A stretch of 64,000 nt of DNA. Origin: Chiridota heheva (Eukaryota; Echinodermata; Holothuroidea; Apodida; Chiridotidae). The position numbers were made by a program, and so were the translations under genes. Below, one piece after another: positions 13,056 to 57,567 of the stretch (the first letter of the stretch is position 1; each line of letters starts with the position of its first letter). Below the pieces are notes generated by a model. The model was not told the origin of the DNA. It was given only the letters and a program-made list of their open reading frames with translations, and ran no database searches. Location: the NCBI GenBank assembly GCA_020152595.1, contig JAIGNY010001912.1, forward strand, positions 1,244,501-1,308,500. Reading direction: 5' to 3'.

Positions 13056-13618
13056 GGAATATTCGCTGGATTTTCATTTTTTCATATATGACAAAAAATT
13101 TGTAGAAACAAAGTAGTGAAAAAACTATGTTAACATCTTATTCCGTGTTATAACAATTTAAAGAGTAGAAAATGTTCTTAAAAACACTTCGTACAGTATA
13201 TGTCCTTCGGCTTGATGATGACATCAAAGCAATTCCAGCACAGTTCTTATGTATTTCTTATCAATCTAATTACATTTTTTTTACATTATCAAACAGCAAT
13301 TTTGGTTTGTTATAGAGATAGGGTGAAATATATAATTTACAAGAAAACATTTTGTTTTTTCTTGGTGTACATCACATTTACAATGGGAAGGGGAAAAAAT
13401 ACAAATCATTTTTAGAAAAATACAAAAGATGTGTTGTTGAAATTGTCTTTATGACATCACAGATGTTGTCAATCAAGTCACTGTTTTCCAAATTCAAAAA
13501 CACTTTAAAATTTTGTAACTTCTACATAGAATAAAATATTAAACAGTTTTTACCACTTTGCTTCTAAAAATTTCCTCTATCATATATCAAAAAAATGAAA
13601 ATCCATGGGAATATTCTT
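13056..13618. mobile_element. Foldback MITE 1, TTAA-flanked
   Basis: Left end TTAA|GGAATATTCGCTGG (13052) and right end CCATGGGAATATTCTT|TTAA (13619-13622). The two halves are approximate reverse complements over most of their length, for example TCATATATGAC against TCATATATC and the matching poly-purine tracts. Each arm holds TGACATCA (13219-13226 and 13452-13459). No coding sequence. Confidence 0.75.
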
Positions 13619-13622
13619 TTAA

Positions 13623-14661
13623 CTTATTTCAGTCCTAGGAATAACTTTGTAGCAAGTACTCAGTTATTCATGTTATCGCTGGACCCTTTTACATTAGTAG
13701 AAGACTACTTTACTATAAATCTTTTATCTTTATAATGTTTCCAACCATTGCAGTAAATGATCATATCATCATAATTCATCTCAGTATGTAACACAATACA
13801 GATATCAGTACTTGGGTATACCTCACACCATTGTAAACTCAGGTAAAGACTCTACATATGCCCTTCCTATAGTATAAAAGAATGTAATCACTTTTCCTAC
13901 AGTCTCCTTTGACTTTTATCACCCTCCATAACTTACGGGTAATTAATGACACTTTTTGTACTATGTAATAAAGTGCTATGAGCAGTCCATGGAATGTACC
14001 ACTACTTTAATGGGGTTCTTGGAATTTTATAGGTTGAGATGAATCATGCAAATGGGCACATACAGTTTATGGCAATGTTCCCTGACAAGTACATGAAACT
14101 GTTTAGGTTTTGTAGCATCTGATTAGCATTATACTTATTTCATATAAGATACTTCTTTTAATTAAACAAAGATTTAAAAAAAATGTAATTCTTATTATTT
14201 CTTTAAATAAAACTTGAGTTGCTCATGAGAAATTTCATGCAATGTGTGAAATGCATAATTGTTAACTAGAAGGAAATCTTGACTTTTTGAAGAAAGAATG
14301 AATTGATCAATATATCCATGCCTTCAAATACATCATTGTGTATAGTATTACAGAATGAGTTCTCCGCTTCTGATTTATGAAATAATACTGAATAAAATCT
14401 TTCTTCAAAAACAATAAATGAAACATGTTCTTTAGCACATAGGAACTATGAAATCAAAAGGAAGCTTTGATCAGTATCACATTTCCTTATGAGCTATTAT
14501 TATTACAAAACATCTTGCAACACAGCATTATGAAACAAGGAAAGAAACAAGTTTGATCTAGTAGTAAATACAAATGCAAGGGCTACTTTTAGGTTGCATG
14601 CTGATACTAAAAACTCTGCAGTTCTTTCTGCCAAGTCTAAGCCAAAATACTAAATAATTAA
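13623..14661. other. Intronic sequence, no gene recognised
   Basis: AT-rich, no repeat or exon recognised. Confidence 0.4.
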
Positions 14662-17140
14662 TTTGTTTGTTTGTTTGATGAGGTCTTAACGACACCACGA
14701 CAACGAAGGTCAAATTGTGCCTGAGAGGTCAGATCATTTTAGAGGTAGTAAGGAAAGAGACCAGGGGAAGAATGAGAGAAACTCAAGAACAAAAGCCAGA
14801 AAGCTGTGATCGAGAGAGGAGGTGCATGGGTAAAACTAAAAACAAAGCAGAGAGGGGGTGGAAGAGGAGGATCAAATATGGTCGTAGAGGGATGCATGCT
14901 GAAGGAAGGAGACTATTTTATCTGGAGGATTTTTCTGGAAGAACTCAGCAATTGAGTTGTGGGGAGCGAGAGAAGCTCTGGGAAGGTTGTACAGGGGCAA
15001 GCAAGGAGAACGTGTTGGATTGTAAGGATGCAGTGGCAATTGTTACAGAGGGTTGGGGGAACCAATAAGGAGGTGGGAGTGAGTGAGGTGGGTGTGACCA
15101 ATTCTAAGACGGGTAATATGAAGCGTTGTCGATACTGAGAAAGGTTGTTGATGGTGGATTTGATCGGGATTGTGGGCTGGATAACATGGAGTTTGTTATC
15201 AATTTGGAAGTTCCATAAGGTTTGCCAGCGGTCACGAACAAGAGAAGCGATAAGCGGCTTGATGTCAGAGAGGGTTTTGGGAAAAGGGAAGGGAGGAGGT
15301 TAAGGGCAAGCTTAGCGGCTGTATCAGCCCTGTCATTGCCAGGGATGCCAACATGGCTGGGTATCCAGAAGAAAAGAACACTTTTCCTGCAGAGGGTGGG
15401 AGAAAAGAGTTTCCGGAGGAGGAGGTGGCAGGTGAGGTTATCCCATTTAAGATTGAGTAATGAAGTAAGAACAGCCTTTGAGTCAGAGAAAATGGCAAAG
15501 TGACTAAGAGGAGAGTACTCAATAAAGTTGAGGGCGAGGAGAATGGCCTTAGCCTCGGCTGAAAAGATGGATGAGTGGTCAGGAAGTCTGCTACTGAGGG
15601 TGATGTCTTGGATGATGGCAGCAGCAGCTGTCTTGTTGCCTTCCTTGGAGCCATCAGTATAGATGGAGGTGTAATTTGAGAGTTGGTCTTTGATTTGGTT
15701 GTGGAGATTGATGAAGAGATTAGGTGAGTTTGAGTTTTGTTATAAGTGGAGAGGTCTAGGTGGACAGAAGGAAGGGGTGGCCCAAGGCGGAAAAGTGGGC
15801 CAGGAATAGGTGCCGAGAGTGGCGGGGTTGATGCCAAGTTGAAAGAGGTCTGATTTAATGCGTAAGCTGAAGGGGCGATAGGGTTTTAGTCCTATCAAAG
15901 AGGAGGAGAAATTGGGGTACCTAATGAGGTTGTAAACAGGGTTCTGGGTGTTGGTGAGGACTCTAAAAGCATAGGAGAGGCTAAGCTTTTTACATCTAAG
16001 TAGAAAGGGGTTCGTTGGCTTCAACATGAAGGCTAGTGATTGGGGAGGTCCTGTAGGCTCTAGACAAAGCCTGAGGGCTTCATTTTGGATGGTGTTAATG
16101 TGGTTGAGGTATGAGTTGTGAGCGACACAGTAAACAATATTGCCATAGTCAAGCTTGGCACTAATGGTGAGCCTGAAAATTTTGAGGAGAGCATAGCGGT
16201 TCGCTCCCAAGTAGTGTTGAGAGCAGTCGGAGGAGGTTGGGAGCTATTGCATTTTAGTTTCAGGTTGGTGATGTGTGGCTTGTAGGTGAGCTTGGGGTCT
16301 AGAGTTAGACCAAGGAACTTTGTGTTTTCAACTTTAGGGATGCGATTCCCATTGAGCACAAAGTTCGGGTTGGGGTGGAGGTTGTTGAAATGACAAAAGT
16401 GCATGCAGACTGTCTTGTCTTTGGAGAATCTAAAACCGTTATTGTTGCTCCAGACTTGCAGCTGATTGAGGCTGGTTTGAAGCCTATTTTCAACAATAGG
16501 AAAGCTAGGGGAGGAGTAGAAGATGGTGAAGTCATCCACGAGAGGGTACGCGTTTGATGCTGGGGCCAAGGTCATTCCCGATGTCATTAATGCTCAGGTT
16601 GAAAAGAGTGGGGAGAGGATGCTGCCTTGGGGGACGCCCTCTTCTTGGGGTACGGCTTGGAGAGGGTGTGGCCAATACGAACTTGGAACTGCCTGGGTGA
16701 GAGGAAGTTTTTAATAAAGATGGGAGGTGGCCTCTGAGGCCAATGGTGTGAAGTTTCGGGTAATGCCGTATTTCCAAGTAGTGTCGAAAGCTTTCTCGAG
16801 GTCAAAAAATATGGCAATGAGGTGTTCCTTTTTGCAAAGGATTCCCGGATAGCGGTGTCGGCGTAATTAACTGGTCTAGGTATTGCGGCGTTTTGGAAGC
16901 CGCTTTGGTGAGGAGAGAGGATTCTGTTGGTCTCGAGGAACCAGTTTAGTCTCTGATTAATGATCTTTTCCATAATTTTACAGAGACAGCAAGTAAGGGC
17001 GATGGGTCGGTAGCTGGTGGGGTCGGTGCTATCCTTCCCCGGTTTAAGGACGGGGATGACAATAGCTGTCCTCCAGATAGGGGGAAAGGAGTGTGAGGAC
17101 CAAATGTGGTTGAAGATGGTGAGTAGGGTAGTGGTGGCTT
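14662..17140 (-). mobile_element. I-type non-LTR retrotransposon copy C (RT + RNase H)
   Basis: 3' tail of TTTG repeats at 14662-14677 (minus strand CAAA). On the minus strand, from 5' to 3', it carries RT motifs (LKPGKDSTDPTSYRPIAL near 17040, NRILSPHQSGF near 16900) and an RT active site LVDD at 16531-16542. Beyond the RT comes GNIVYCVAHNSYLNHI near 16130, then an RNase H domain near 15300-15700. Several frameshifts break the ORF into overlapping pieces. It is 5'-truncated near 17140, where similarity to copy A stops. This copy retains the ~1.08 kb segment deleted from copy A. Confidence 0.85.
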
Positions 17141-17543
17141 TGATGACCAAACGTTATACTCCTAATACATAAAAAGAAAAATGATGAATTCAGACGGAAT
17201 TATTTTAAATGCTGAACTACCCTTGATTTATCAAGGATAGCTTTAGTGTTCATGGGCTATAAATAGGTATAGACAACATTTATCTACATAATTTTTTATT
17301 TAAGACAGAAATTGAAAGAATCATAAAAAGATCTGTAGGTGTCATAACAATAAATCCTCAAAATTTCATCAACAACAACTTGAAGAAGTACTGATAATCT
17401 ACCAAGGAGATGGGACATGCAGTTATTATCCCTTATTTTATCTCTTGTATGTTTTGTCCTGGAAAGGGGGCATAAGCTTCTCTCAATTTCATTCCAATAA
17501 TACAGTAGTTGACAGTATCTCATCTATCTCTCTCCTTCTCTCT

Positions 17544-18125
17544 CTAGGTGCCGAGTCTGAAACAGACATTGGCGATCATAGCCTTCCAGTCACTTCTGTT
17601 TAGGGCAAAGCGCATAAACTTATTGTTACTTAGGATGTTGTTGGTTTCCCAGTTGTTTAAGCTTTGGACATATTTGACTCGCTGCCTTCCTTGGCTTCTT
17701 TTGCTCTCAATTTTTTCATATACTGCAAGCTGTTCCAATCCACCCTCCCGATAAACAAGCCCAAAATATTTCATCTGTCTCCTTCTAATGGTATTGAGTA
17801 GGGAGGGACCTGTCCATGCCTGAAGCTATCAGGACATCATCATTTGTTTTCTTTTCTCCTAATGAACATTTCTGTTGCTTCTAATCTTTTCTTGACGTCA
17901 CTGGTAATTGTCCAGCATTCACAGCCATAGAGAAGAGTAGATCATCCATATGCCTTCAAGAAACAGACTTTTGTATCCATTCCAATATTTCTATTTTTCA
18001 GAATTGGATTCATTTTTGTAAACATGTCTTTGGCAATTGCAATGCGTTTTCCTAACTGCGTTAATGCACCGACTATCTGATGTTAATGTGTAGCTCAAGT
18101 ACTTAAACTGTTTAAGTCTAATACA
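17544..18125 (-). mobile_element. C-terminal tail of a second LINE family (RTE/CR1-like)
   Basis: The frame ending at 17544 reads KYFGLVYREGGLEQLAVYEK, then GRQRVKYVQSL and ends WKAMIANVCFRLGT, a typical C-terminus of endonuclease-reverse transcriptase ORFs. Further upstream on the minus strand, broken frames give YGCECWTI and KYLSYTLTSD, also standard for that region. A GA/GATA-rich simple repeat at 17519-17547 abuts the stop and may be the 3' tail. The rest of the element is missing. I cannot place the clade with certainty. Confidence 0.7.
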
Positions 18126-18929
18126 GCTTAAGTCTAATTAAATAAACAGAGAAAGCACAATCATTTGAAATGAAAGCTTCCAACGAGACTTTTATCCTTA
18201 ATCTTCAGCTATAAATAACTTGTGCAACAACATCAAAAAAAGGGGAAAGACGTGCAAGTTAAGAGGAAAGATGAATCAAAAGAGAGTTATCGTCTTTGAA
18301 ACCTGTTTCAAAATAGGTTGATGATTATCAATGCTTGCTGTGGAGAAACTTCAGTTTCAAGAAACAAATACTAACATACTGCATATAACTTCTTGATAAA
18401 CACATAAAGAAATCTAGAAAATCACAACAAATTCAGAAAATGATCAACATAATAAAGTACTTCTTTGCATCAATTGTATTTTGAGTTGTTCAACTTTTAT
18501 ACACAACTGTCAAAATTAAACAGAAGAAAAATAATACATAGCATTAATGAAAAATAGACACATGAAAAGTTATAAGGGAAAAGATTTAATCAAAGGCAAA
18601 CTCAAATTTCTGAGAAATAAATCTCTTTTTTAAGCGATAGCAATTCCTTTAAGAGCATCGTCTTTGCAATCTTGAGAGCAGAATCAATATCATTAATTGT
18701 AATCAGGGGCATAGTGAGGAGGCTTCCAATAGAGGTGCAAGCTTTCATTTGCCGACAGGTACTACTAATTTGCCGAAAAATTGTCAATTATGTTCAGCAG
18801 CGGTATTTGACATGGGGGGCAGATTTAATTTATGTCCCAAAATACTAACAAAAATGTATAAGTCTCTTATTATGGTATAACTATTTGTAAAGGGAGGGGG
18901 AAGGTGTGGGGTGGTAAATCTAATGGAAA

Positions 18930-19580
18930 TTTAGGTAAAATTTCAAGAAAATGGACTAAGGACTTTTAACGGAAATTTCTCCAAAATTGATGAAAATTTT
19001 CCCAAAATTAATAAAAATTAACCCAAAATGAAGGTTTCACAAACATTTAAGGGAATTTCCTAAAAATTGAAGCAAATTTTATAAGAATTGATGTAAATTT
19101 CCCGAAAATGAAAGAAGAAAAAAAATCCGAAAATGAAGGACATTTCACAAAAATTGAAGCAAATTTCCTGAAAATGAAGACAAACTTTCGAAATAAAGGA
19201 CATTTCTTGAAAATTGATGAAAATTTCTGAAAATTGTTGCAAATTTCCCGAAAATTGATGCAATTTCCCCCCAAATTGATGCAAATTTTCCGAAAATTGA
19301 AGCAGATTTTCGGAAATTAAAAAAATCCTGGGAAAATCTTTTTTTTTGAAGGACATTTCCTAAAAATTGATGCAAATTTTACGAAAATGAAGACATTTTC
19401 AATTATGAGAATTGATGCAAATCTCCCGAAAATGAAGAAGATATCCTGAAGGAAATTTCCTGAAAATTGAAGCAAATTTCATAAAAACTGAAAGTAAATT
19501 CCTGAAAATGAAGAAAAGTTTTTAAAAATTGAAGCAAATTGAACAAAAATTGAAGAATTCTCGAAAATTGAAGATTTCTG
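18930..19580. repeat. Degenerate AAATTGAxGCAAATTTCC minisatellite
   Basis: Variants of AAAATTGATGCAAATTTCC recur roughly every 18-37 bp in an irregular array of well over 15 units. Open frames on the minus strand here (Phe/Ile/Ser-rich) are by-products of the repeat. Confidence 0.7.
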
Positions 19581-19812
19581 GAAGAAAAGATGCTATGATG
19601 GAATCTTGCCTCTTCAAAATCAATTCATAAGACCTTCATTATGGAGGGGGGAAGGGGTGGGGGTGGGGGTAATGGTACTTGGCCCCCAACCAAATTATTG
19701 GAAGCCCTGACCTCCTGTTCCTACGTCATTAAAGTTATATTAAAAAGGAAGCAAGAAATGGTCAACCTTGAAAATGTAAGGGTTTATGCTTAATTTTGCA
19801 TTAAACTTTCAA

Positions 19813-19922
19813 TTTATTTACACCCATAAGCCAACAAAGTTTCCAAATTTGTCGATGACCACCCCCCTTTATTTACACCCATAAGCCAACAAAGTTTCCA
19901 AATTTGTCGATGACCACCCCCC
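19813..19922. repeat. Two-copy 55-bp tandem duplication
   Basis: The unit starting TTTATTTACACCCATAAGCC occurs twice with identical sequence apart from the run of C at its end. Near-identity suggests a recent event. Confidence 0.85.
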
Positions 19923-20363
19923 TCCCCCACCCTTGGCTACGCCCCTGCTGGAAAATATTCATTGGTTCAGAAGGAAATGGTTGGAAGGAAATCGATGTTT
20001 AGACTTTTGTCGGAATTTAATCTTCTTTGTTGGGAAATGCGATGTTTAGAATTGAAGTGACAGAAGAAGAAAAAACTAATCCACCGTTTGTCGGAAAATC
20101 TGATCTCTTGTCGTAAAATACAATGTACCAGTACTGTACTGACTACTCCGTCTCTTCGTCAGGCCCAAAAACATAGTTAACCACTTTCTTCTACTCCTTC
20201 TTTTTTGCTTTCCTTCTTTCTTTTTTCCTCATTCTTCCTTTCTTTCCTTTTTTCCTCTTTCTTCTTTTTCTTCTCCCTTTTTCTTTTTGCCGACAAGCAT
20301 GTTCAATTTGCCGGCAACCTCAAGTTGGTGGGGGTGTGGCACCCCTGTTTGGCTATGCCCCTG

Positions 20364-21651
20364 ATTTATAATGTCTTAATTGTTTCTTAAGTGTTCACTG
20401 AAACAGAATAAACATGTCTGGAATGATAACAGGAAGCTGATTTACATCTCCTAGCTCCTAAATTCTAGATAGTGATGGTAAATTTAACAACATTGAGAAA
20501 CAATATTCTACACTTTAATACAGTTTTGCATATCTGGATTCTAGAGTATCTATGGAGACCTGACATTTTCAAATGGTGAAGTTCAACAGTATTGTAGTTG
20601 AATGTTTTGTTACCCTTTGTCCCTGAACACTTCCAGAAACCTTCACATTCTTAAGTCTTCCCAAGATGATAAACAGGCCAGAAAAAAATTAGGTTAATCA
20701 AAGGGAAAATGAATACAAAGGGAAGGTATATGTTCAGCTGGCAAAGAACATAGGAGCTTTCATGTCATATATATATTCTATTTACATTATCTAGGAAGTT
20801 AAAATGTCTGCTGATGCAAAATATATATTTTTTTTTAATGTTACATTCAAACTGAATATGTTCTTTTCAAATAAAAATAGTTTTAAATTAATGTGTAACA
20901 TCATGACATAATTGTATTATGGTTCATGAAAGACAACATGGTCAAAGCCTGAAAAGGGGTTCATAGGAATAAAATGGGGGTATAAAGGTTTTTTTCCACA
21001 TTGGAAAATATTTGGAATTGAATTTAACAGCTAGCTTGGGTTGAATTTGAACAAACAACTAAACTAAAAATTCAACTATTATCATCTACCAGCAAATACT
21101 TGGGTTCAAGCTCATCTTCATGATTTGTCCCCTTCCCCCCATACAACCATTTTTTTCTCCAACCACCAAGATTGCTTTCATTTTCTAGTCCCCCTGTATT
21201 TTCTAAATTGAATCCCCCTGTTTCAATAATCCCCATTTTGCATGAAGAAAAACAAAATGTTCATCAAATTTCTTTAGTTGAAACATTAGATCAGAAAAAC
21301 ATTATTGTAAAATAAGTTACCAGAGCTGTATATTGAGATTACATAATTAACTGTCACTCCTAATTCAGACTCTTTAAGTACTGTGCAACACTGAAGTCAC
21401 TGCTAAATTGTTAACCCTACGTTTGGTTTTGGGTTTTTTTTATGAAAGAAGACAGTTCTATTTCTATAAGATATTCACCAATGCAAACATAGTCTTAATG
21501 GTCAACAAAAATATATTCAACAAATTTATTTGCATCAATACATTTTACAAAACAATTACAAAAAGTCCACATATTTTCAGACCTAATTTGTTTTCAAAAA
21601 TCCATCCATAAACATGAAAACACTTGCAGGAATGATGAAAAGAAAATCTTT
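20364..21651. other. Intronic sequence, no gene recognised
   Basis: AT-rich, with a run of T at about 20829-20837 and a C-rich patch near 21130-21230. No exon or RNA gene seen. Confidence 0.4.
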
Positions 21652-21655
21652 TTAA

Positions 21656-22258
21656 AGACATGATAATACAATCATTATTTCATACGATAGAGGATTAAAT
21701 CTTAACCAACTGGCAAACACAGCTAGTCAAAATCTTATTCCTATCTCAAGTTTGAAATTGACACATGGGAGCTGCCATTTTGTTCAATCGTATATTGAAA
21801 TATTGTGCGTGATGACATAATTTCCCCCCAATAGGGACATAAGGATTATAGTGTATTTCTTGATAAATGTGATTTTATCTTAATTTATTCAAAAAAGTTT
21901 TTATTCCAAAATGATGTGACATGAAGTTTTAACACGTTTTGATAATTTCATGTGTACACAAAAATTTCCTTGACTCTTACAAAAGAAAAACAATTTTTCA
22001 TCAGCTAGAAATTTTTAGGTAGATTTTAAAGAAATACAAAGCATTCCAACATCCTGCTGGGCTGATGACATCATAATCTGCATGCTTTGAAATCAAAATG
22101 GCAGCTCCCATAGTACTATTATGTAGTAGCATAAAAGTTTTTAATAATTACAAAAAAATGTGTAAGATTGTTTCAGGAGTTATGAATCTTGGTCAGAAAA
22201 TTTGTTACTTTTAATTCTATCACATGAAATAAAGATTATGTCAGACTTTATGTCTCCT
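21656..22258. mobile_element. Foldback MITE 6, TTAA-flanked
   Basis: TTAA at 21652-21655 and 22259-22262. The arms contain the exact inverted pair GGGAGCTGCCATTTTG / CAAAATGGCAGCTCCC (about 21767 and 22097). The outer parts pair more loosely (TTTCATACGATAG against CTATCACATGAAA). TGACATCA occurs at 22066-22073. Confidence 0.7.
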
Positions 22259-22262
22259 TTAA

Positions 22263-23274
22263 AAATAAGAAACTTTGATTCAAGGCTACACAAATATAAA
22301 GTGTATGAACCATACCATGAAAAAAAAGTGAAGAGATGGAATTTAATGTACATAAAAGATGTAAGATTTACAATACATTTTGGAATCAAGGTATAAGGCG
22401 GCAAATTTGATGGATTACCAGAATTAGTACTCATGCTCTGCAAAAAATGCATTAATTTCAACCCAAAATTTATGTTCATGTATCTAGGCATGTATTCATC
22501 TGTGCTGCAAATGTTTTACTGTTCTTCGATAATCAATGTTAATAAATGTTTAACGCCAGATATCATGTAACATGGACAGTAATATACAATCAAAGTCAAC
22601 CTTTCTGATTGGTCAGATACAAATACCGACAACCAATCAATAATCGACACGGAAGTAATATAACACTGTACATACACACAATGCATACAGTTCTTATTAA
22701 ATTATAAATGATCCACAATCGGATGTGACGTGAAAGATATAATCATCACAATTTTATTAATTTTACTGAGACAAGATTTCCTCTTTAAACAATGTTAAAA
22801 AAAAAATGACTGGACATTTGCTTTCATTATAAAATATTTCATTAAAAAATTAAAAGCTAGAAATCTTTCTTTCTAAATACTATCAAAGGCCTTGCACAAA
22901 CCAGGTAATATGTTATCCCTGTACAGACAATCAACCGCCCTGGGGTTTGTTCCTCGCTTCATTAATACTGTGCATGTAGTCAACTCGTGACGAAACAACA
23001 ATACAGTCGTGATTAGACAATGTCATAGCGATACCAAGAAGGTACCTCTCCGAATAAACCCAGAATGGAATGAGCTTGTTATCTACCGGTGTATAGAATG
23101 TATGTCACTATTTGACACATAATTCAATGTTGTTTGAAGCAGTTGCAACTCTTGTATTTAGAATAATTTTGGATGCAGAGTGGATAAGTTTTTTTCAAAT
23201 CAATTTCAGAATATAGTCGAAATGAGGATGCAACGTTTGGTTATTTCACTTTGTCTCTCACCAAAATGACAAGG
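22263..23274. other. Intronic sequence, no gene recognised
   Basis: No exon or RNA gene seen; AT-rich with scattered short ORFs lacking any recognisable motif. Confidence 0.4.
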
Positions 23275-23278
23275 TTGA

Positions 23279-23835
23279 AAGGAATATTCCCATGGACTTT
23301 CATTTTAATATATTTGATAGAGGACAATAAAGGAAATAGATCGGTGAAAAAACCATTCAATATTTCATTCCTTCAGAAAGTTATTGAATCTTAAAGATTT
23401 TTCTTGTCTGCATTAAAGAGATTGTTGGTCTAAGTCATCATTATGATGTCATCACAGCACTTCTATACTATTCTTTATGTATTTGTTTGAAAATTATTTT
23501 CGTTTTTCTAAATGATTAAGAGAAAAAATTCTTCAAAAATTCTTAAGAATAAATTTACAATGATGTTTTCCAATCTGTTCTTGTAACTTATATTTGAATT
23601 ATGAAAAATTGGCAATCAAAGAAATACATAAAAATTAGTACAAAAAGTACTGTGATGACTTCATAATGATGACTTAGACTCAGCATCAAAGTCATTTTTA
23701 TGAGGGTAAGAAAAATCTTCAAAGTTTAATAACTTCTTCAAGGAATGCGATATCAAAATGTTTTTTTTTTACCAATCTGTTTCTTATTTTTTCTTTATCA
23801 AATACATCAAAATGAAATTCCATAGAATTATTCCT
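23279..23835. mobile_element. Foldback MITE 2
   Basis: Left end TTGA|AAGGAATATTCCCATGG (the TTAA looks mutated to TTGA) and right end CCATAGAATTATTCC before TTTAA (23835-23839). The arms pair over long stretches: ATTGTTGGTCTAAGTCATCA in the left half faces ATGATGACTTAGACTCAGCA in the right. TGATGTCA lies at 23444-23451. Its termini resemble foldback MITE 1. Confidence 0.75.
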
Positions 23836-23839
23836 TTAA

Positions 23840-39966: not shown

Positions 39967-39970
39967 TTAA

Positions 39971-44340: not shown

Positions 44341-44347
44341 CATCTCA

Positions 44348-44780
44348 CCCATGTTCCATCCCATGTTCCATCCCACGTTCCATCCCACGTTCCATCCCAC
44401 GTTCCATCCCACGTTCCATCCCACGTTCCATCCCACGTTCCATCCCACGTTCCATCCCCCGTTCCATCCCACGTTCCATCCCACGTTCCATCCCATGTTC
44501 CACATGACATCTCAACCCATCCCATCCTAACCCATCCCATCCTAACCCATCCCATGTTCCATCCCATGTTCCATCCCATGTTCCAACCCATGTTCCATCC
44601 CATGTTCCATCCCATGTTCCATCCCATGTTCCATCCCATGTTCCATCCCATGTTCCATCCCATGTTCCATCCCATGTTCCATCCCATGTTCCATCCCATG
44701 TTCCATCCCATGTTCCATCCCATGTTCCACATGACATCTCAACCCATCCGATCCTAACCCATCCCATCCTAACCCATCCC
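44348..44780. repeat. 12-bp minisatellite in a two-step higher-order array
   Basis: The first block (44348-44505) repeats CCATCCCACGTT, the second (44548-44730) repeats CCATCCCATGTT. After each block comes the same spacer (CACATGACATCTCAACCC, then repeats of ATCCTAACCC). Each block with its spacer therefore looks like a duplicated unit whose C/T variant was later homogenised. Six-frame ORFs here (FHPT, FHPM and WDGT repeats) are artefacts of the 12-bp period. Confidence 0.92.
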
Positions 44781-45612: not shown

Positions 45613-48426
45613 GCTCCATAAGAAGTCTCATACTAGCTATCAGTCCCTAATTGAGCATACTGTGTATGAAAGTGTCAGTTCATATAATAGCTTAAATGCA
45701 AATGACTTGTTGAATAAGAAGAAAAGGCAGAGTCAAATAATTATGCCTGATATAGCCCTTGGTGTATACCACATGGTATATATTATATCATATGTCCTGC
45801 ATGAAGAACACAATAATAAAGATAGAATTTAATAATCATGCCTAATACAATAATAAAGATAAAGTTTAATACTCAAATATTTTGCTCAAAATTTTGAAAG
45901 GATTTTAAATCTCAGTGCTACAAGAGATGCTTGAGGATCTCTGAAGAATATTGGAAAATTATAACATTTTAGAGTTATCTTCTAAGGAAATATCAAATGT
46001 TTTGTAAACTTTTTATAGAAACTAGTCTTCAATCTGTCTTAAGTGTCTCTGAAAAACTTTTAACATTTTGTAATGAAACTCTAACCTTCCATAAGGATAT
46101 CTGAAGAAACTAACTTTTTCTGAGGAACTCTAAAAGAACCTTAACATTTCCTGAGGAATTCTAAAAAAACTTTCTGTGGCCAACCGGCCAGACGAAATCG
46201 CCATTACATACATGTAGGTTCGCATTATACTTCGCATGCTCACCAAAAACGGAAATGAAATATAAATCCAAATAAAGAAAATGTTTTTGCAGGAAACTAC
46301 TGAATTTAGATTCCACTGAAATCAAATTTGTTTTTGAGAAAGATAGAAATGTAAGTTTGATACACTTATCTAGAAAGGATTTAAGGCACAGGGAGGATGA
46401 AGGAAATTATTTTTCATTCATACATGAAAATATGGCATCTCTCTTAAACATGAAGTATTTACCTAAAAGCAAAATCAACTTTGGGAGCTTAAGATGTAAA
46501 TTAAGGACTGTAAATTCGCAAACAACAGCTGTCTGAGCATGAAATATTTCATCTTGAATTTGAGTTAAAACAACTCTTGAGGCTCCTACCATTTCCATAT
46601 GATTGCAAAGATTATAAAAAATGTCATCACTGCCCCAAAATACAGAAAGTAAGATGAGGTTTATTACTTTTTTCTACAATGGAAACCTGTGATAAATGCT
46701 GGAATCAAATTACAATGCATGAATGAGTTCGCAATTTAATTTTAACAATACCACAAACTGACAATGAAGTGGTCATGTTAGAATGTGACATCATAATTTT
46801 ACATCCTGGAAGACTGCATTCTAAACTTTTGACTGTCTGACCTCTAACTACCCTTTCTGCAATGTTGAAAAGTACATTATGTTTTTACAAGTATGACAAC
46901 CTGAAAAGTGAGTGTAAGAACAAATCTATTATTTCAATTGCTAAGCCTATAATATTCAAAACCGGATATTCTTTTTGCCATCACACATCAGACTGCACAA
47001 ATCTCCCATGCGCCATCTGTTATAAGTGAAAAAATTCATTCAAACAAAAATACTGTGTGTATTTTACAATACATTAAAGCTTTGTAATTATGTTCTTGGG
47101 AAACAGTGTAACTATTTTCCAGAACATAATGTGATCTTACTGAAGATCTGAGTTATGTGACTGCTTCCTTTGGCCAAGCATAACTCGAGTTGGACTTAAC
47201 AATTAACGTTCTATTTAATAAATGATAATATTTTAGGATCCAGGTGAAATCTTTTGAAATTATTCAAAGGTTTCTTTACAAAAATTTAGTTTGCAATCAA
47301 ATCAAACGACTTGGTAAGTACAACTAATGGTGTAAGTTGATGATTGATTCTAGGTCAGGTCAGGTCACACCACCAGGTACTTCCAGCTACCTGCTGTCCA
47401 GCATGTCATCCAGGGACCTCCAGCTATCTGTTGTCCAAGGACCAGGATTTTGATTACTTCTGACTTCTGTGTTCAAAATTATTGTTACAAGTAAGTTGGC
47501 TTTGAATTTTTGTATGTATGTGTGTGTGTTCTGCTGAAGAGACCTTACTAGTTGGATGGGATAGTTAGGCCCTAGTTCACTTTTAAATTCATTTCCAAAA
47601 TTTCCAAACTTTGTACGCCCACCAAGATTATGAATGATTTTTTGTGTTTTTATAGCCCAAGCTTATAAGCACTACTGTAGCTAACAACACTTATTAATAT
47701 GCATGAGATCGCCGTTTTCTTTCACTCACACCAGTCACATTTAATATCACCATTCAGCTTTCCATATCTGGCTCTTTTTATATCTTTTCAGGAGATTATT
47801 CCTTCCAAGTGCATTCTACGACGAATCTAAAATCTCCAAGAAGGGCGAACACGCAAGAATATTTTGAACTTTTTTTTCTTTCTTACTAAAAGGAGCTACT
47901 CATCTGAATTCATTTTCAATGAAGAATCTATGCAAGACAAAATAGAAATAGACCTATATGTAGGCCTATAGCAAATGATATAAAAATTGCACCATTAATT
48001 CTATGGAAACACACTATTCGAAAGACTAAATGGTCTGAAACGGGCATACACGCTACCAGCACACCCCTTGCATCGCGCCTGGCATCAACTCCCTGGGCAG
48101 CTTCTATTTCATGGGTAGCTCCACTGATATATTTGAGGGAAACTGTTTAGTCTCTGCCACATAGTCAAACCCTGGCATTCATGACACAACCCAAGAACAC
48201 ATTTCTAGTTAGCACGGTAGATTTCTCAAATTACAGCATTTTAACACTGTCTGAGGTATTCACGTTTTGCATGGATTGCAAATGTATCAAAGGTAGAGAG
48301 CATTCTTGTGCATTTGTGAATCACTTAACCCAATTGTTTCTCTCTTTTCCTGTCAAGTAGCAGTAACTGGTGTTTTGTACCCAGAGAAAATCACCCTCTT
48401 TGGTCTGCTCTGCTCTAAATTATTAT
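45613..48426. other. Intronic sequence, no gene recognised
   Basis: A weak repeat (CTGAGGAA(C/T)TCTAAAA and variants) spans about 45940-46175. A CAGGTCAGGTCA stretch with two CCAGCTA(C/T)CTG motifs lies at about 47354-47430. TGACATCA occurs near 46786. No exon recognised. Confidence 0.4.
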
Positions 48427-48430
48427 TTAG

Positions 48431-48694
48431 AGGAAAGTTACCCTCCAATATGTTCTGAAGTGAGCGCTGCCGTGCTTGTAACGTCACTTCTGGTATTCAA
48501 TTTACCTTATTTTTAGCAAAAAATTTGCAGTGTTATTGATCATACATCCACCGGACCGAGCATAGGGGCCTATATGTGAGATCGAAAACATCACAATCTT
48601 TTTGCGATCAATGAGGAAATTGAAAACCTGAAGTTACGTTACCAGCACAGACGGCATTCACTTCTGAATCTATTTATGGGACGACATCTTCCCT
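48431..48694. mobile_element. Foldback MITE 7 (264 bp)
   Basis: Left end TTAG|AGGAAAGTTACCC and right end CATCTTCCCT|TTAA (48695-48698). The arms pair at about 70-75 percent by eye: GAAGTGAGCGCTGCCGTGC faces the complement of the CAGACGGCATTCACTTC stretch. Shorter and more GC-rich than the other foldback copies. Confidence 0.65.
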
Positions 48695-48698
48695 TTAA

Positions 48699-49136
48699 GT
48701 AAACAAGGAAAATGTGCTTCACATTTCAAATTCTTAGTTCAAGACATCTTCAACGATGAAATTGCTTTACATTTTCCATGGTAATTGGTATGCGGAACAC
48801 AGATACAGATCAAATTAGACTGGAGCAAGACTGTTGTTTTGATCAGTAATAAAGCACTTCTGTAATCATAACCCTGTCCCTCATCATTTCCAACAGTAAA
48901 AATGCTTTTTTGTGTGCATATTTCACAAAAATCACAAAGGTAATCGACATGAAGGAAATGAAAAAGCTTTATTGAATTTTTTTCAAAGACACTTATTCTA
49001 GATTAGAGTTCTATTCTTGACAAGAAGGCAAAACTTAACCTTAAAGCAATAATTTGTATGCAGAGTACTTTTTCTCTATGTCAAGATGAGAATTGAAAAA
49101 CATGATACTTTCACAATTTATAAGGCATCAAGGCAC
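48699..49136. other. Intronic sequence, nothing recognised
   Basis: No gene or repeat seen. Confidence 0.4.
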
Positions 49137-49245
49137 TTTGAAGGCACTTGAAATGTAGTGGGAGTAATCAATACAACAAGCAGTGTCCCAGCATCTTTTT
49201 TATTTTTGTAACTGTAATCAGAATGGAAAGAAGTTTACAATAATA
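49137..49245. repeat. Dispersed duplicate pair, member 1
   Basis: Shares GGGAGTAATCAAT, ACAACAAGCAGTGTCCCAGC and ATCAGAATGGAAAGAAG in the same order with 50093-50200, about 950 bp away in the same orientation. Confidence 0.8.
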
Positions 49246-50092
49246 TTTCAAAATGGCATTTTTTCCCTTCTCATTTGTCAGAAAAAAACCAGGAACCAAG
49301 AATGATGACAACTAAAATACTAAGTAACAGAAGTTTCACACTCACTTCTTGGGTCAAAGTTTAATAGCTTGTCACCAGCAGAGATATTATTGGAAATTAA
49401 CCAACTTAACACCAAGCATGACATCAGAAATTCAAAACCGGTGGTATCCAAATCAAATAAAAAAACCACCAATATAATCATATAGTATTTGACCTGAATC
49501 ACATTTGCTAATTCTACAAAATATTGAAAACAATATGGATTCTTTTTTTCAGGAAAGAACATTAAAATATGACATTGAGATATTTACAGAGAAACTATGT
49601 AACATTCATGACTTGTGGGTCAGTTGCAAAATTGGCTCGAGTCTTCTGAAGAACTTTGAAAGGTCATCTGTATGTTGTTAAATCCATTCTGCAAACTATT
49701 TGATACATTTCGTATTGGAATATTTATGGGACACTTATGACATTTATAATTCCCACACAAATTGTAGATCTGTAGATAATTTTGTGTTTAATTCATGACA
49801 ATATAAACACAAAATATTATTTATTAAGAAGAAGAACATGCTCTAAAGAAATTAATTTGCTATTAAATGACATTTTCAACACAGGATACATGACAATGAT
49901 TCCCTACAAACAATTAACCACAAGGAAGTGTGAGAGGGGAATATTCAATAGTTTGTAAAGAGTAACTGAACGATGTGTCATCATTTTTTTATAAACCATA
50001 TACTGTTCACCCATTATTTTCATCAATTGTTACATGCACCCAGTCATATCCCAAGCTTAATAGGGGCAGATTTTACTGACCAAAAGGCAAAT

Positions 50093-50200
50093 TTTAAAGG
50101 TACTTAAAATGTAAAGGGAGTAATCAATAATACAACAAGCAGTGTCCCAGCATCTTTTTTATATTGGGAATTGTTATCAGAATGGAAAGAAGGCAAAATG
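50093..50200. repeat. Dispersed duplicate pair, member 2
   Basis: Direct repeat partner of 49137-49245. A segmental duplication or two copies of a short element; no termini are visible. Confidence 0.8.
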
Positions 50201-51971
50201 GTTCTCAAAAGTATGTTTTTAAAAACAAAATGTAGATTGCATAGTGAAAAGTGGCAGAGTGGAGGCAATGAGGGGCAGGTAGGAGCATCTCCTTGAAAAA
50301 GTAAAACTAGGGGCCTGATCTATGGATTGCAAAAATCAAAACAGACTCTTCAATAAACTGTAAATTTATTACAAGCCTTTTAAAACTTTCTAAATTCTTG
50401 AGCTATTTCCAAAAATTCATTATTAGTTGAAGAATTTCTTGCCTTCGATTCAAACACTATTATTAGAAATGACAACAAAAGGCTTAAGCAAGAAGACAAT
50501 CTGTAAAAGAATGAATCTTTAATTCTTATTTTCCTCTGAGAAAAAGAATGACAAATAGAAGAATCTTCGCCTCATGAATGAATAATGAACTTAAACCTTG
50601 GTGACATAGTAAATAAGGGAAACAAATGAACAAGCCACGTCACATGAAGCCTCACATTGAGCTGTATACAAGCAAGAATTTAAACAATTCATGAAAATCC
50701 ATTATGAGATTTTTCCCTTAAGACCAAGACAAATTATTCGCAGGTGTAGCAAAGCTAAGAAATTAAGGAGACTGAATGGTGGCAATGTAGGGTAGGGTCC
50801 ATTAGCCTGCAATACAAAGGGGTGTTCATTCACAAATGGTTTGTTTGTTTGTGTGAGGTGTTCACTGCCTGAGAGGTCAAATGGAAAAATAAAAAAAAAC
50901 CTTCTCGCTCTTAATTTGTATGTAAGGTTTCTTTTCTTTGTTTTCAAGTACATTTAGAAGAAATATATATACTTTTTAACAAATTATAGCAATCTCCATC
51001 GCACAATGACTTCTCTTAACTATGTAACAGATATAAGGAATTTCTCCTTTTATGTTATAACAAAAATTTATAATTAAAGACAGAAGGTGCCAGGACAACA
51101 TTTTTTGTGAAGTAACAACCAGTATTAGATAATCATGGTCTTGCATTTCAACCATTTAAAAAAAGGAAAAAAACTCCAGGGCACTTGTTTCCCATGTAAA
51201 TGAAGGACACACTTTCCCCTTGCCCCCATACGTAATAAGGACAAGTGGAAATCCCCTCCATTTATGCCGTGGTGCAGGCATTCTTGAGTATGCTATATTT
51301 ACCTACAGTTAATACTGTATGGAAGTTAAAGCAGAAAATCACTTTTGAGACCAAAAACATAAAATTCTCAATTTTTCTTACTCTGCATTAGCAAAGTCTG
51401 TAAAACAATACAAAACATGATAAACAAACATCTGCAAACACATAAAGAAGCACAGACACAAGTCAACCATCTTAAACTAATAGCATTGTTTACATTAAAT
51501 CACACCTCCAATCAATTTGAAGCAACACAGGGCACACAATAATCTTAATTTCTCTTTTGACCACAGAAAGAACTGACAGACATAAATCTATAATGCTCAT
51601 AAACACATACATAATCCGGTTTGCTCATTCACATTCATGCTAAACTGTCGGAATAGATCTTTGCACTTGTGTATATTACATTTCATTTGGGGGTGAGGAG
51701 CCTTAAAGAAATTTTCCTTTCTAGAACTAAGACATGAATCATTAAATCTCCATTTACAACATGCATTAGTCATCATCATCATTATCAGTTCCTTGGGACA
51801 ACTTCTGAGAATACAGAACTCACTCATACAAAAGAATGTAGGTAATGGACATACGGATGTGATCAATAGTGCAAGATTTAATGAGCAGCCTGGACAGTTG
51901 TTGAGGAAGCTGTCAATGAATGCAGCAGTTTAAGTCTGCTGACAGCTAATGCATTTCTTGTTTTTTAAGTT
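50201..51971. other. Intronic sequence, no gene recognised
   Basis: AT-rich with no exon or RNA gene seen. Confidence 0.4.
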
Positions 51972-51975
51972 TTAA

Positions 51976-52490
51976 AGGATTAGTTTAGTGGTCAAGCATG
52001 TTCATCTTATATGAAAAAGGATTTCAAAAGAAACAATATGGTGAAGAAAGCATTCAAAAATCTTATTCCGTTAAGGAGACATTTAAGTTAAAAGTTTGGT
52101 ATCATTTGTTTAAAACGACTGAAATCAGACTAGTTGTGATGTCATAGCCTGAGATTCATTAAAGTCTTTATGTATTCTATCATATTTTGTCCTGCGATTT
52201 TTGTGGTTATAAACGATGGGATATGTCAAAAAAGTAGTAAGACTGAATCTAGGAAGGGTATTTACAATATACCACCTGAAGAAAGTTAAAGAAAAATAAT
52301 TTAAATAGCAAAAAAATTAAATAAACTTTCTTTAAAATATATACAGACTGAAGAATCTGAGGCTGTGACGTCACAACATACCAAACTCTCCTTAACAGAA
52401 TAAGATTTTTGAATGCTTTCTTCACTATTTTGTTTCTTTTGAAGTCCTCTTTCACATTAGATAAACATGTTTGACCACTGAACTAATCCT
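51976..52490. mobile_element. Foldback MITE 4, perfect TTAA flanks
   Basis: TTAA|AGGATTAGTTTAGTGGTC on the left (51972) and CCACTGAACTAATCCT|TTAA on the right (52491-52494). The inverted arms extend far inward, including GAAGAAAGCATTCAAAAATC against GATTTTTGAATGCTTTCTTC. TGATGTCA lies at 52137-52144 and a perfect CRE-like TGACGTCA at 52366-52373. Very similar to MITE 5. Confidence 0.88.
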
Positions 52491-52494
52491 TTAA

Positions 52495-53518
52495 GCAAAT
52501 TAAACACTAGCCTTTATCCACTGTTTTCATATATAAAGGATGATTGAGACAGAAATCTTATAAGTTGTAGATATCTACTTTCTAATGGATGTTATTAATT
52601 CTTTTTCTTAAAAAAATTAGATTCTGAAAATTGAGTGTGTTGAGTTTAGAAACACAATAAGAGTATATACAAACTACATTTTGATTTGTCTGACCAAAAG
52701 CACACCTGTGCAAGTAGTTGAAAAAGAAGGAGATTTATTGTACAAATTCTGAAACCAAAATGCAAAGCTGCATTGAGGTGTCGATACCCCAAAATAGATA
52801 AAAGCACAGCATCGTCTTGCAAGTTCTATTTTCTGGGGTGGGTAAAAAAACTGGTTATTGGACATTGAAAATGTTATGTCAACGCCGTGCCTGTGTTCTA
52901 TGTTTGAATAGGATTTTGTACCTGTTTTGCCAGTGCCAGAATCACTAATTCTGTACAACTATGCATCCTTATCTTTCAAATAATCTCTTTCTTATCTGTC
53001 TCACATTCCATCACATTCAACCAAATGTCGTCGACGAAGACGAGTGAACACACAATTACAATGACGGGGTCGTCACCTGCGTATTCTGTTATGATTGTAA
53101 TAATGCAAAACACGAAACGCCTAATACGACCTGGAACAAGAACACAGGTACAACATACGGACAGACATAACATCGACAACCAAGTCAATGTCCACAGCCT
53201 TTGATAACCAGTTGTGGTGCACTGGCGTGTCTCGTGGTCTGTAGACAGGTATGATAACCGCTACACCACAGTTAGTAGTCAACCAAATGTCAAGTTTTAC
53301 ATCATTATAGAAAAAGATTCCTTCATCAATAAGCAAAGTTCAATAGTGCCACAGGCTATAGCTAACTACATCTCATTAGTATCCATCCATGCATGCACTG
53401 GACAAATGGAAAGATAATGTATCTGTGAAATAATCAATACGTGACAACACATAAAGAATATGTATCAGAAAGCTTTATACCCTTGCAGACATGAAAACTG
53501 GCTGCCTATTTAAATAAT
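52495..53518. other. Intronic sequence, no gene recognised
   Basis: Contains a possible tRNA-like fragment near 53216-53270 (minus), noted separately. Otherwise nothing recognised. Confidence 0.4.
53216..53270 (-). repeat. Possible tRNA-derived (SINE-like) fragment
   Basis: The minus strand reads TGGTGTAGCGGTTATCAT, which fits a tRNA A-box region, followed by CCTGTCTACAGACCACG resembling an anticodon arm. No good B box follows. Could be a decayed SINE head or chance. Confidence 0.3.
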
Positions 53519-53828
53519 GATTAGCTATAATAACACTTATTTCTGCACAAGAATATGTCAAGAAATGTAACAATGAGATCAACAACCATCTTTAATTACC
53601 ACCTTAGCAAAAAGAAAGAAGAAGAAAAAACGTGAAAAAAACGGTATATGAGTGGATAGGATAGATGTGCCCTAATAGCATGATTAACTATGATAAGATT
53701 TGTTTCTGCACAAGAATATGTCAAGTAATGTAATAATAAGATCAACAACCATCTTTAATTACCACCGTAGATAGAAATATCAAAACCAGGATATATGAGT
53801 GGATAGGATAGATGCCCTAATAGCATGA
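53519..53828. repeat. Two-copy tandem duplication of ~150-165 bp
   Basis: TTTCTGCACAAGAATATGTC, ATCAACAACCATCTTTAATT and GAGTGGATAGGATAGATG occur in the same order in both halves. The first copy has an extra A-rich insert near 53608-53640. Confidence 0.88.
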
Positions 53829-54103
53829 CACAACAATTGCTAGCAAAGTTCTGGAACAGAGCTCATAGGCCATGAAATGTTTCTCCTTCTCTTTTAAATA
53901 ATCATTATGCCCAGAATGTAAATGGATTCAGATTTTTTTTGGTCACTTAGCCATGCAAAAGTAAACGAAGTTCAATGTTTTAATTTCTAACAGTAACACT
54001 TCTTGTTTAAAGAATCTTACCTATTTTGTTTCTTTTTTTTGTTTCTAGCTTCTTCACTCAATATACAACCTATCCAGTTAACATTCAGAACATATTTATT
54101 TAA

Positions 54104-54592
54104 AGGAGTTGGTAGCCCAAAAGTGAAGGCGTATTTAAGTTGAGTCTCGCATTAAATCAAATACCTTTCTTGCACCCAGCGGTACAGAATATTATTAATG
54201 CTACTAAATCCCAAGCCGAGTACATTTGCATGTGTTTTCCCATTAACTTTTGGGGATTTGTTCACGTGTGTGCGCTATGTGAACATTTCTATAAAAACGG
54301 ACCGTGTGATGCAATTTCTATGTCATCAGGTCCTGATGTCATTGTTTGGTTCTTCTCTTGAGTTGTTTCCCATCTTTATGTTTGTTTGTCTGTGTGTATT
54401 TTATCATCCTCAGTAGTGTTTAGCAGAACCCGGCAGTCACCTCTGGTGGCTGATGGAAAAATGCAGGTAACTACCGCGTCTGTCCGTTAATGTTGTGTAT
54501 TCAATTGTTGTTGTTGTTGCAATTTCTATCGCTTAAAATCGACATAAATTGACAAAAACTAACGCCCTCACTTTTCAACCGCCAGCTCCCCA
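54104..54592. mobile_element. Foldback MITE 8, TTAA-flanked
   Basis: TTAA at 54100-54103 and 54593-54596. The left arm AGGAGTTGGTAGCCC...AAAAGTGAAGGCG faces the right arm complement GGGGAGCTGGCGG...AAAAGTGAGGGCG. TGATGTCA lies at 54334-54341. ORFs of about 72 codons inside have no recognisable motif. Confidence 0.7.
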
Positions 54593-54596
54593 TTAA

Positions 54597-55736
54597 GATT
54601 GGTAGATAATACAAGTTTGTTTATGTGCATTACAGAAAACAAACTTGTATATAAATCAAAAGAAAAGGTTGAGGATACTCTTAAATACAAATCTTGTAGG
54701 TTTTGTTAGCTTGTTTGAAAGCATTCTGGCAAATGGTAGTACAATTGGATTTAAATCACTTCATTTTTTATCCTACTTTTTTGCATCACTTGAAAGAGAT
54801 AAAAAGTTCATGTTTCCATATCTGTATCTGCACACTTAAAAAATTAATATGCCACTGCAGAGGATTAAAACACCATAAAAACAATTCAAATCTGTTTCAA
54901 TGAATCATAAGATCATTTCTTTCAATCAATAGAATATGTATAGCATCAGCATTTTGAATTCAACTATTCATTAGAGTATAACAAAATGCATTTCCCAAGG
55001 TCACATCCCAACCTCCACAACCACCCAAACAGGAGCCTCACTCAGCTAAATAATGCAGTACACTATACGACACACCAATAAACTATTTATTTATGAGTAC
55101 TCAAACCAATCTCATCAGAAAAAGAAAAAAAAACTCACTTATTTCTTAAACAACAATACATTTTTGGGTCAGATTTCAAAAATAGCTGATATTACAGAAT
55201 GACTACATGAATCACAAATTACACTGGAGATAATTAAGATGGTGATTACTTCAAAAAATGGGGGGACAGCTGTGACATAATTGATGGATTGTGATTCTAA
55301 GAAACCATTCTTCCGGGTAGCAAAAATGAAACGCTTGGGAAATTTATCAAATCAAGCCTACAGGTAACATACTGCTTACAACTTAAGAAATTACCAAATT
55401 TCAAGCTAATTTATGATTTTACTTCTGTTTTTTGTGTATGAATTCAACATATACAAACCTTATGTGAATATTTTATCTCTCAACATGGGAGTTACAAAGT
55501 GTTGCTCTACTCAAGGGATGTGCAAATAAATACAAGTGCAATTTTTAATGATGGGTGGGTGGCATAGGTCTGTGACTTTTTTTTCCAATCAAATAAGTTC
55601 ACATTTTTACTATGTCATTCTGTATCAATTCAATCCAACATTTTACCCTTGACTGATAACATATCCCAACATCAGTAGCAGTGCCAGGATTTTGGTCATG
55701 GGGAAGGGGGAGAGGGGCAAAGTTATCTCATGGCAA
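54597..55736. other. Intronic sequence, no gene recognised
   Basis: AT-rich with no exon, RNA gene or transposon end seen. Confidence 0.4.
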
Positions 55737-56090
55737 ATTTTGCTTGATTGAGGGTGGAGCTTTCTGCTAAATTTTACTTGATTGAGGATTAAGCTTTCTG
55801 CTAAATTTTACTTGATTGAGGGTTGAGCTTTCTGCTAAATTTTGCTTGATTGAGGGTTAAGCTTTCTGCTAAATTTTGCTTGATTGAGGCTTGAGCTTTC
55901 TGCTAAATTTTGCTGGATTGAGGGTTGAGCTTTCTGCTAAATTTTGCTTGATTGAGGGTTGAGCTTTCTGCTAAATTTTGCTTGATTGATGATTGAGCTT
56001 TCTGCTGAATCTTGCTTGATTGAGGGTTGAGCTTTCTGCTAAATTTTACTTGATTGAGGGTTGAACATTCTGCTAAATTTTGCTTGAGGA
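55737..56090. repeat. Ten-copy 34-bp minisatellite
   Basis: The landmark GCTTTCTG recurs exactly every 34 bp at 55759, 55793, 55827, 55861, 55895, 55929, 55963, 55997 and 56031, with a diverged tenth unit at 56065. The unit continues CTAAATTTTGCTTGATTG. Units differ by a few substitutions and no indels. Confidence 0.95.
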
Positions 56091-56999
56091 TATGATGGAG
56101 TTTTAAAACCCCTTTGTCATGTTCAACTGCTTCCATAACACTAATGTTGTTGAAGCATAAAAAAAAAAAAAAAAAAAAAATCAACATAAGGAAAATCATA
56201 GATTTTTCGTTGTGATGTCACAAAATATATATAAAAAAAATTGCACTGGGCACTCTTTATGTCGAAAACAGTAATATTTTGTTTCGAATTGACATAAATT
56301 TTTTATATCTAAACATTGAACAAACATAAAGACATCACAGTATAGAATATAATATTAAATAGCTATTTGAAAATAAGTTCAATATCAACCTGTATGCCAA
56401 GGCTTGATTTATCCAAACATTGCCTATCAACTATATCAAATGCTTTTGTTCTTTTTTCAAAGAACAAATGACAGATATCATAAGAAATACCTTTCATTGA
56501 TGACAATGATAATGAAACCTAAATAACGGTGAAATCTTTGGGAATTTATCTGTACAATAGTCTCCTCACAGTGTGTCCTTGAAGCATTAGCTGCCTCATA
56601 TGTTAATGGCAATGGCAGGTGCTGTACAGTAATGAAAATTTAAAGTACCTTGCAAGAAATTGGACTTTATCCCAAAAAACTGTGGAAATCACAATCAAAT
56701 TCAAGGTGAATTGCAATTTCTAGATGAAAAGTTCAAACCCTGGGAGAATATTTTAGTGTCGGCAAAAGGTTAACCTATATGGAACTCAAAATAAAGTCTT
56801 TCAGCCACATAAAAGTATGATGCATCTTGTGTCATCTGAATGAATTTTAAAACCATAATATTTTGCATCCAGACAAAAAACAAATTGTGTACCAGACCAT
56901 TAATTATCTTCATGCATTCATACTCTCAAAGCCAATACTAGATAAACCGTTTCATGTATTTGCAGTATACTTATTATCTTGCTTACTGTAATAAGTAGC
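56091..56999. other. Intronic sequence, no gene recognised
   Basis: A-run of 22 at about 56159-56180. A TGATGTCA near 56213 and GACATCACAG near 56330 face each other and may mark a decayed foldback element. Confidence 0.4.
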
Positions 57000-57003
57000 T
57001 TAA

Positions 57004-57567
57004 AGGATTAGTTCAGGGGTCAAGCATGTTTATCTTATATGAAAGAGGACTTCAAAAAAAACAAAATGGTGAAGAAAGCATTCAAAAATCTTATTCCATT
57101 AAGGAGATAATTAAGTTTAAAATTTGGTATCATTTGTGTAGAAACAACTGAAATCAGACTAGTTGTGATGTCATAGCCTTAGATTCCTCCAAGTCTTTAT
57201 GTATTCTAACATATTTTGTCCTGTAGTTTTGTGGCTTAAAAACCATGGGATATGTCAAAAAAGTAGTAAAACTGAATCTAGGAATGGTATTTATAATATA
57301 CCACCTGAAGAAAATTTGAGGAAAAATGATTTAAATAGTGAAAAAATCAAATAAACTTTCTTTAAAATACATTAAGATTTTGAAGAATCTGAGACTGTGA
57401 CATCACAACTACTCTGATTTCAGTCATTTCTACAGAAATGATACCAAACTTTGAACTTTAATATCTCCTTAATGGAATTGGATTTTGCAATGCTTTTTTC
57501 ACCATTTTGTTTCCTTTGAAGTCCTCTTTCATATAATATGGACATGCTTGACCACTGAACTAATCCT
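57004..57567. mobile_element. Foldback MITE 5
   Basis: Left TTAA (57000-57003) then AGGATTAGTTCAGGGGTCAA. The right end is CCACTGAACTAATCCT followed by CTAA, a mutated TTAA. Collinear with MITE 4 and clearly the same subfamily. TGATGTCA at 57166-57173 and TGACATCA at 57398-57405. Confidence 0.88.

Follow-up and report, generated by a model that had tools for sequence, protein, structure and literature searches.

Kolobok transposons have TTAA-specific 4-bp target site duplications and 5'-RR and YY-3' termini, which one report contrasts with piggyBac (PMC9587614). T2-MITE of Xenopus, a family of miniature inverted-repeat transposable elements (MITEs), is defined by a TTAA target and a terminal AGGRR, and is described as long-lived in its activity and presumably a non-autonomous Kolobok (PMC6004289). 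In this study, we analyzed a window of 64,000 nucleotides from the holothurian Chiridota heheva (assembly GCA_020152595.1, contig JAIGNY010001912.1, positions 1,244,501 to 1,308,500, forward strand). One intron of a WNK gene in this window contains non-coding elements, each with two arms that fold back on each other between TTAA-type flanks. They were designated A to H, where G is a candidate. Elements A, B, C, D, F, and H, together with a solo arm, are probably old insertions of one long-armed, non-coding MITE family with TTAA/AGG ends. This family was most likely mobilized by a Kolobok transposase, its founders probably renewed their palindromes, and the copies would have been neutral after insertion.

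The elements resemble T2-MITE in their putative TTAA target, purine-rich AGG-type terminus, lack of coding sequence, and divergent subfamilies (PMC6004289). They differ in consisting mostly of two long arms, and the likeness is one of described traits. With the Kolobok superfamily they share TTAA and the 5'-RR and YY-3' ends, but they carry no transposase (PMC9587614). KolobokP differs in its direct long terminal repeats, which measure ~450 or ~660 bp and carry inverted ends of 11-18 bp (PMC9587614). A solo repeat unit of that kind was considered and rejected, since the aligned arms of A, C, D, F, and H are about 165-270 bp long. The Foldback (FB)-like element Tm1 of root-knot nematodes also has long inverted arms that fold back, but its arms are made of 13-15 bp tandem units and its target duplications of 8-10 bp lack a consensus (PMC3169594). 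A tandem-repeat scan of the window reported no array within the elements. No report of this MITE family was found in the titles and abstract openings of the open-licence literature searched.

Foldback elements and their ends

The preliminary description of this DNA had proposed at least eight foldbacks in the intron. For all eight noted copies, one half was compared with the reverse complement of the other half, using 300 dinucleotide shuffles each. Seven paired above chance (z 5.7-59), whereas the copy at 54100 had a z of 2.5 and stayed below the shuffle maximum. The seven foldbacks, to which no strand is assigned, are A (13051..13622, z 19), B (21652..22262, z 5.7, the lowest of the seven), C (23275..23840, z 39), D (39440..39971, z 32), E (48423..48702, z 29), F (51970..52497, z 38), and H (57000..57571, z 59), and their sizes range from 280 (E) to 611 bp. 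The palindrome of C is close to full length, the 5' end of D is degraded, and the right arm of F has deletions. Element H is the best preserved, with two 210-bp arms, 87% complementary, around a 152-bp centre. The whole window was also scanned without regard to TTAA (634 positions and 1,268 shuffles, with a null maximum score of 78). This TTAA-blind scan recovered six of the eight noted copies (A, C, D, E, F, and H) with scores of 121-686. It missed B and the copy at 54100, and its remaining matches scored 68-74, under the null maximum. The starts derived from the scan differ by 4-12 bases from those noted before. The expectation that the arms pair above chance was borne out for seven copies by the shuffles and for six of them by the scan as well.

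None of the 71 stop-to-stop open reading frames of at least 90 aa in the window lies fully within an element, although one frame of 111 aa (22180-22515, minus strand) extends into B. No transposase was seen within the elements. Of the traits of a MITE, the seven copies show short length, lack of coding sequence, and terminal inverted repeats, and six members of the main family and the solo arm occur within the 64 kb.

The ends of the seven foldbacks were then read directly from the letters. TTAA is exact at 10 of the 14 ends and has one change at the other four, and at the degraded left end of D (39440) its position depends on the alignment. Across the window, exact TTAA occurs at 0.9% of positions and TTAA with at most one change at 9.4%. 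The letters inside TTAA are AGGA or AGGG in four elements (C, E, F, and H) and at the right end of B, with reads that include TTAA/AGGAAT, AGGATT, AGGAGA, and AGGGAA. The termini follow 5'-RR...YY-3' as AG...CT in B, C, E, F, and H. In A and D the base adjoining TTAA is lost or changed, and purines are still present where TTAA is exact. The terminal AGGRR is fitted by C (AGGAA), the right end of B (AGGAG), and E (AGGAA and AGGGA). Judged by sequence, these ends would fit non-autonomous Kolobok or T2-MITE-like elements and not piggyBac, and the fit is good but incomplete.

TTAA at most ends is also what MITEs of the piggyBac type, which likewise duplicate TTAA, would leave. The ends of piggyBac start with CC. 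No piggyBac-type termini were found inside TTAA in these elements, most of which have 5'-AG...CT-3', the pattern that the Kolobok report sets against piggyBac (PMC9587614). A piggyBac origin is thereby made quite improbable.

Family membership and conserved blocks in the arms

An alignment of 12 arms, two from each of A, B, C, D, F, and H, shows common blocks in one order. An arm profile was built from them with nhmmer, and each element was left out in turn as a control against circularity, with F and H removed jointly. The full profile recovered all 12 input arms and the solo arm. With the element itself omitted, both arms were still detected for A (E 1.9e-22 and 1.1e-16), C (1.2e-25 and 1.7e-18), D (1.8e-20 and 1.8e-7), F (7.4e-16 and 6.8e-7), and H (1.7e-16 and 2.2e-17), while the values for B were weak (0.0015 and 0.011). 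The best E in the controls was 1.8 on the reversed window and 0.13 over five shuffled windows. These six elements form one family, to which B, its most divergent member, is weakly attached.

Element E gave no match to the arm profile and no blastn match to the other elements, and therefore represents a second palindromic family with the same type of ends as the main one. The single architecture ascribed to at least eight copies in the preliminary description is not supported: the seven foldbacks share non-coding arms and TTAA-type flanks and fall into two families, and the copy at 54100 is not shown to be a foldback. The closest pair in blastn was F (51972) and H (57000), with 81.5% identity over 573 columns. 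Near-identity had been claimed for the fourth and fifth MITEs, which are those at 39440 and 48431 if numbered in order; these two are not near-identical, and it is F and H that form the close pair. Copies of mixed divergence had also been described, and this is supported.

A solo arm, absent from the preliminary description, lies on the minus strand at approximately 4519..4734 (nhmmer E 2.9e-8). It was still found with A, B, C, or D omitted (E 9.1e-8 to 1.1e-11) and was lost once F and H were omitted, which places it near the F/H subfamily. No second arm was seen on reading the sequence.

Given that all the evidence comes from one window and that a TTAA flank is not proven to be a duplication, the elements could be local inverted duplications of host DNA instead of transposons. 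Against this stand six separate loci that have a common arm, a common end type, and a similar spacing of blocks, with boundaries that fall on TTAA-type sites. We consider local duplication of host DNA extremely improbable.

Conservation along the arms of the MITE family was examined in a MAFFT alignment by comparing 9-base windows with the 95% level of column permutations. Each arm of F and H counted half, columns with a gap weight of more than 3 units were dropped, and 238 columns were kept. Windows above the 95% level corresponded to TATATGATAGA (~36 bases from the end), TGATGTCAT (~165), and TTATGTATTTCT (~197). No other parts of the arms are as well conserved as these three internal blocks, although the permutation test is uncorrected for aligner anchoring and the conservation may partly reflect such anchoring. 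In the left arm of H (plus strand), block 1 is TTATATGAAAGAGGA at 57035..57049, 36 bp from the end, block 2 is TGATGTCA at 57166..57173, 167 bp from the end, and block 3, beginning TTATGTATT, is at 57197..57208, 198 bp from the end. At the mismatch limits used, block 1 was found in 11 of 12 arms (it is missing in the right arm of B, B3), and blocks 2 and 3 were found in all 12, with the best-scoring sites in D5 and F3, respectively, off the aligned position. These deep blocks are conserved at least as well as the tips, which suggests that they may be recognized by a transposase or a host factor.

A pattern of two blocks matched the window 31 times. Of these matches, 18 fall within the elements described here or within the solo arm (a number that includes overlapping or off-position matches) and 13 elsewhere. 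Twenty shuffles gave a mean of 15.2 matches (sd 2.9, maximum 21). Since the pattern is common outside the elements, the blocks are diagnostic only by their place within the arms. The block resembling a cAMP response element (CRE) was considered as an element-specific excess and rejected: TGACATCA has 15 sites and TGATGTCA 6 sites in the window, against 2.4 and 2.1 expected, and both are frequent outside the elements too. In a search of viral contigs for outside copies, two patterns had no matches and a third had one match, with no arm signal outside the pattern itself (5.3 bits).

Arm evolution and proposed renewal of the palindromes

The matching of two arms over long times can seldom be tested, and this one intron offers subfamilies of differing divergence. 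F and H are the clean pair. Their arms were compared over 162 ungapped columns, leaving out 50 gapped columns that are mostly deletions in F. There were 128 constant columns, 28 singletons, 2 side, 1 element, 1 cross, and 2 multiple columns. Over the arms only, identity was 90.9% for F5-H5, 86.4% for F3-H3, 88.9% for F5-F3, and 86.7% for H5-H3. The pattern approaches a star, in which a near-perfect palindrome was the founder and its arms decayed mostly independently. A first identity matrix had placed same-side arms of F and H closer to each other than to their partners, a result that was set aside as mostly due to the inclusion of the non-palindromic centre.

In the arm tree, the nearest neighbour of an arm is its partner in C, D, B, and F/H. 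Support (SH-aLRT/UFBoot) was 99.8/100 for F/H, 95/82 for C, 89.9/73 for B, and 81.6/77 for D, and is modest for B and D. The approximately unbiased (AU) test rejected one shared old palindrome for C-D (p 0.0060 and 0.0064) and for F/H paired with A, B, C, or D (p no higher than 0.0051). In C, D, and F/H, each arm follows its own partner. These results suggest that palindromes were renewed or homogenized in the active lineage, where the arms seem to have been kept matched as new subfamilies arose.

If all arms instead derived from one ancient palindrome by plain decay, no renewal would be needed. This explanation gains from the age of the arms and their poor alignment, and from the tests in which a shared palindrome survived, namely most pairs with A or B by the AU test and B with F/H by the Shimodaira-Hasegawa (SH) test. 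It is opposed by the AU rejections for C-D and for F/H with any of the other four members, by the nearly perfect F/H founder, and by a whole-set topology test that rejected all 16 arrangements, albeit driven by F/H. Descent of every arm from one undisturbed palindrome is in our view rather unlikely.

Renewal would proceed as follows. A transposase of the Kolobok superfamily, encoded elsewhere in the genome, would mobilize the MITEs in trans, recognizing the terminus and perhaps the internal blocks too. Each successful founder would be a renewed palindrome, in which gap repair or hairpin-mediated conversion had made one arm a copy of the other. After insertion, the copies would decay neutrally as intron filler.

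Several observations weigh against a renewed, Kolobok-mobilized family. In the arm tree, the two arms of A do not group as sisters. In the AU test, a shared old palindrome was not rejected for A-B, A-D, B-C, and B-D, and for A-C the p value was 0.029 in one orientation and 0.067 in the other. The SH test failed to reject B with F/H (p 0.33). The arms are ~50-60% alike, which makes their alignment uncertain, and for the trees and topology tests arms of 240 bp were taken, which in F and H extend into the non-palindromic centre. Four of the 14 ends are not exact TTAA. The F and H ends, AGGAT, miss the last purine of the strict AGGRR of T2-MITE, the left end of B is AGACA, and the ends of A and D are altered. 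That TTAA was duplicated as the target site is something we infer from a single window, with no transposase, outside copy, or empty site.

The family might also have spread by palindrome renewal combined with a three-block arm code (at ~36, 165, and 197 bp, including the CRE-like TGATGTCA), which stays constant since it has to be read in both arms by the transposase or a host bZIP factor. We put this forward as a tentative possibility, and one that is more doubtful than not. Long-armed MITEs are common, and the set of elements is ordinary in kind; the pattern of arm renewal is moderately interesting. If consensuses built genome-wide agree, the family would serve to test how arms are homogenized during transposition.

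The WNK intron, RNA folding, and other repeats

All of the elements lie in one intron of a WNK gene, as the preliminary description had stated, and the gene is on the minus strand. A tblastn search of the window, with a human WNK1 kinase sequence as the query, matched 62604-62693(-) and 3535-3801(-). The upstream kinase exon is at 62605-62693, and the other exon, at 3535-3748, contains an OSR1_C (PF2-like) domain by Pfam and matches WNK3, WNK1, and WNK2 in the PDB; its 3' end is set only by the extent of the tblastn match. On reading, the splice sites are canonical, with the donor GACAG/GTAAGT and the acceptor CACACAG/ATTTTCC, which set the exon boundaries at 62605 and 3748. The stretch between them, 3749..62604, is one intron of ~58.9 kb. 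Splicing from 62605 to 3748 keeps the reading frame via a split arginine codon. The elements look like neutral filler of this intron.

Foldbacks in the transcript had been expected to make long hairpins in the WNK pre-mRNA. Three elements were folded on the transcribed strand. H (572 nt) gave -282.7 kcal/mol, where its shuffles averaged -106.9 (z -30), C gave -200.3 kcal/mol (z -20), and B had a z of -5.4 (20 shuffles). Such hairpins are thus energetically expected, and the folding models suggest that the pre-mRNA could form them as a by-product. Palindromic MITEs form hairpins wherever they are inserted.

The inverted repeats might instead have been selected as hairpins of the WNK pre-mRNA, for editing, splicing, or small RNA precursors, and the very stable folds of H and C, as well as the presence of all elements in one intron of one gene, are what such selection would lead us to expect. 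However, 28 of the 34 variable F/H columns are singletons in one arm, so that maintenance of the hairpins is unsupported. A compensatory paired change was seen in one of the 162 columns of the F/H pair, no more than the one cross or two side columns, and therefore gives no sign of hairpin selection. Pairing of the arms is weaker in A and B, and the window has no Rfam match at gathering scores, nor a tRNA gene. Selection for hairpins is very improbable, and neutral decay of MITE insertions is preferred.

The copy at 54100, candidate G (54100..54596, no strand assigned), starts with TTAAAGG and has an inverted end match of ~28 bp, but a foldback is not demonstrated. It was rejected as a foldback with an arm score of 14.0, below the shuffle maximum of 17.5, and the arm profile gives no match there. 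None of 5,000 shuffles confined to the two ends reached the 28-bp end match, and the minus strand folds more stably than shuffles (z -5.8). Among 3,203 TTAA pairs 200-800 bp apart, the end match scores 13, in the range of chance-like pairs (53894-54103 scores 14). G is possibly a short-ended transposon.

Other repeats were also observed in the window. Retrotransposon fragments resembling long interspersed nuclear elements (LINEs), 81-86% similar, are at 578-2001, 7355-8144, 14662-17140, and 37209-39300. Of four minus-strand cases tested, three carry reverse transcriptase or RNase H domains (RVT_1, RNase_H, and RVT_3), and a LINE RNase H query gave no confirmed viral locus and matched RNase H-type proteins. 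A young satellite-like array in the intron, at 27131-27800, has seven tandem copies of a 96-bp unit with 99% matches, and at 55735-56087 a 34-bp unit is repeated in tandem about ten times with 92% matches. A long minisatellite at 44335-45832 consists of CCCATGTTCCAT-like and longer units and is open in several frames, for which the repeat itself probably accounts. Two direct repeats of ~0.95 kb, at 8314-9234 and 34873-35821, are 77% similar and contain internal sub-repeats.

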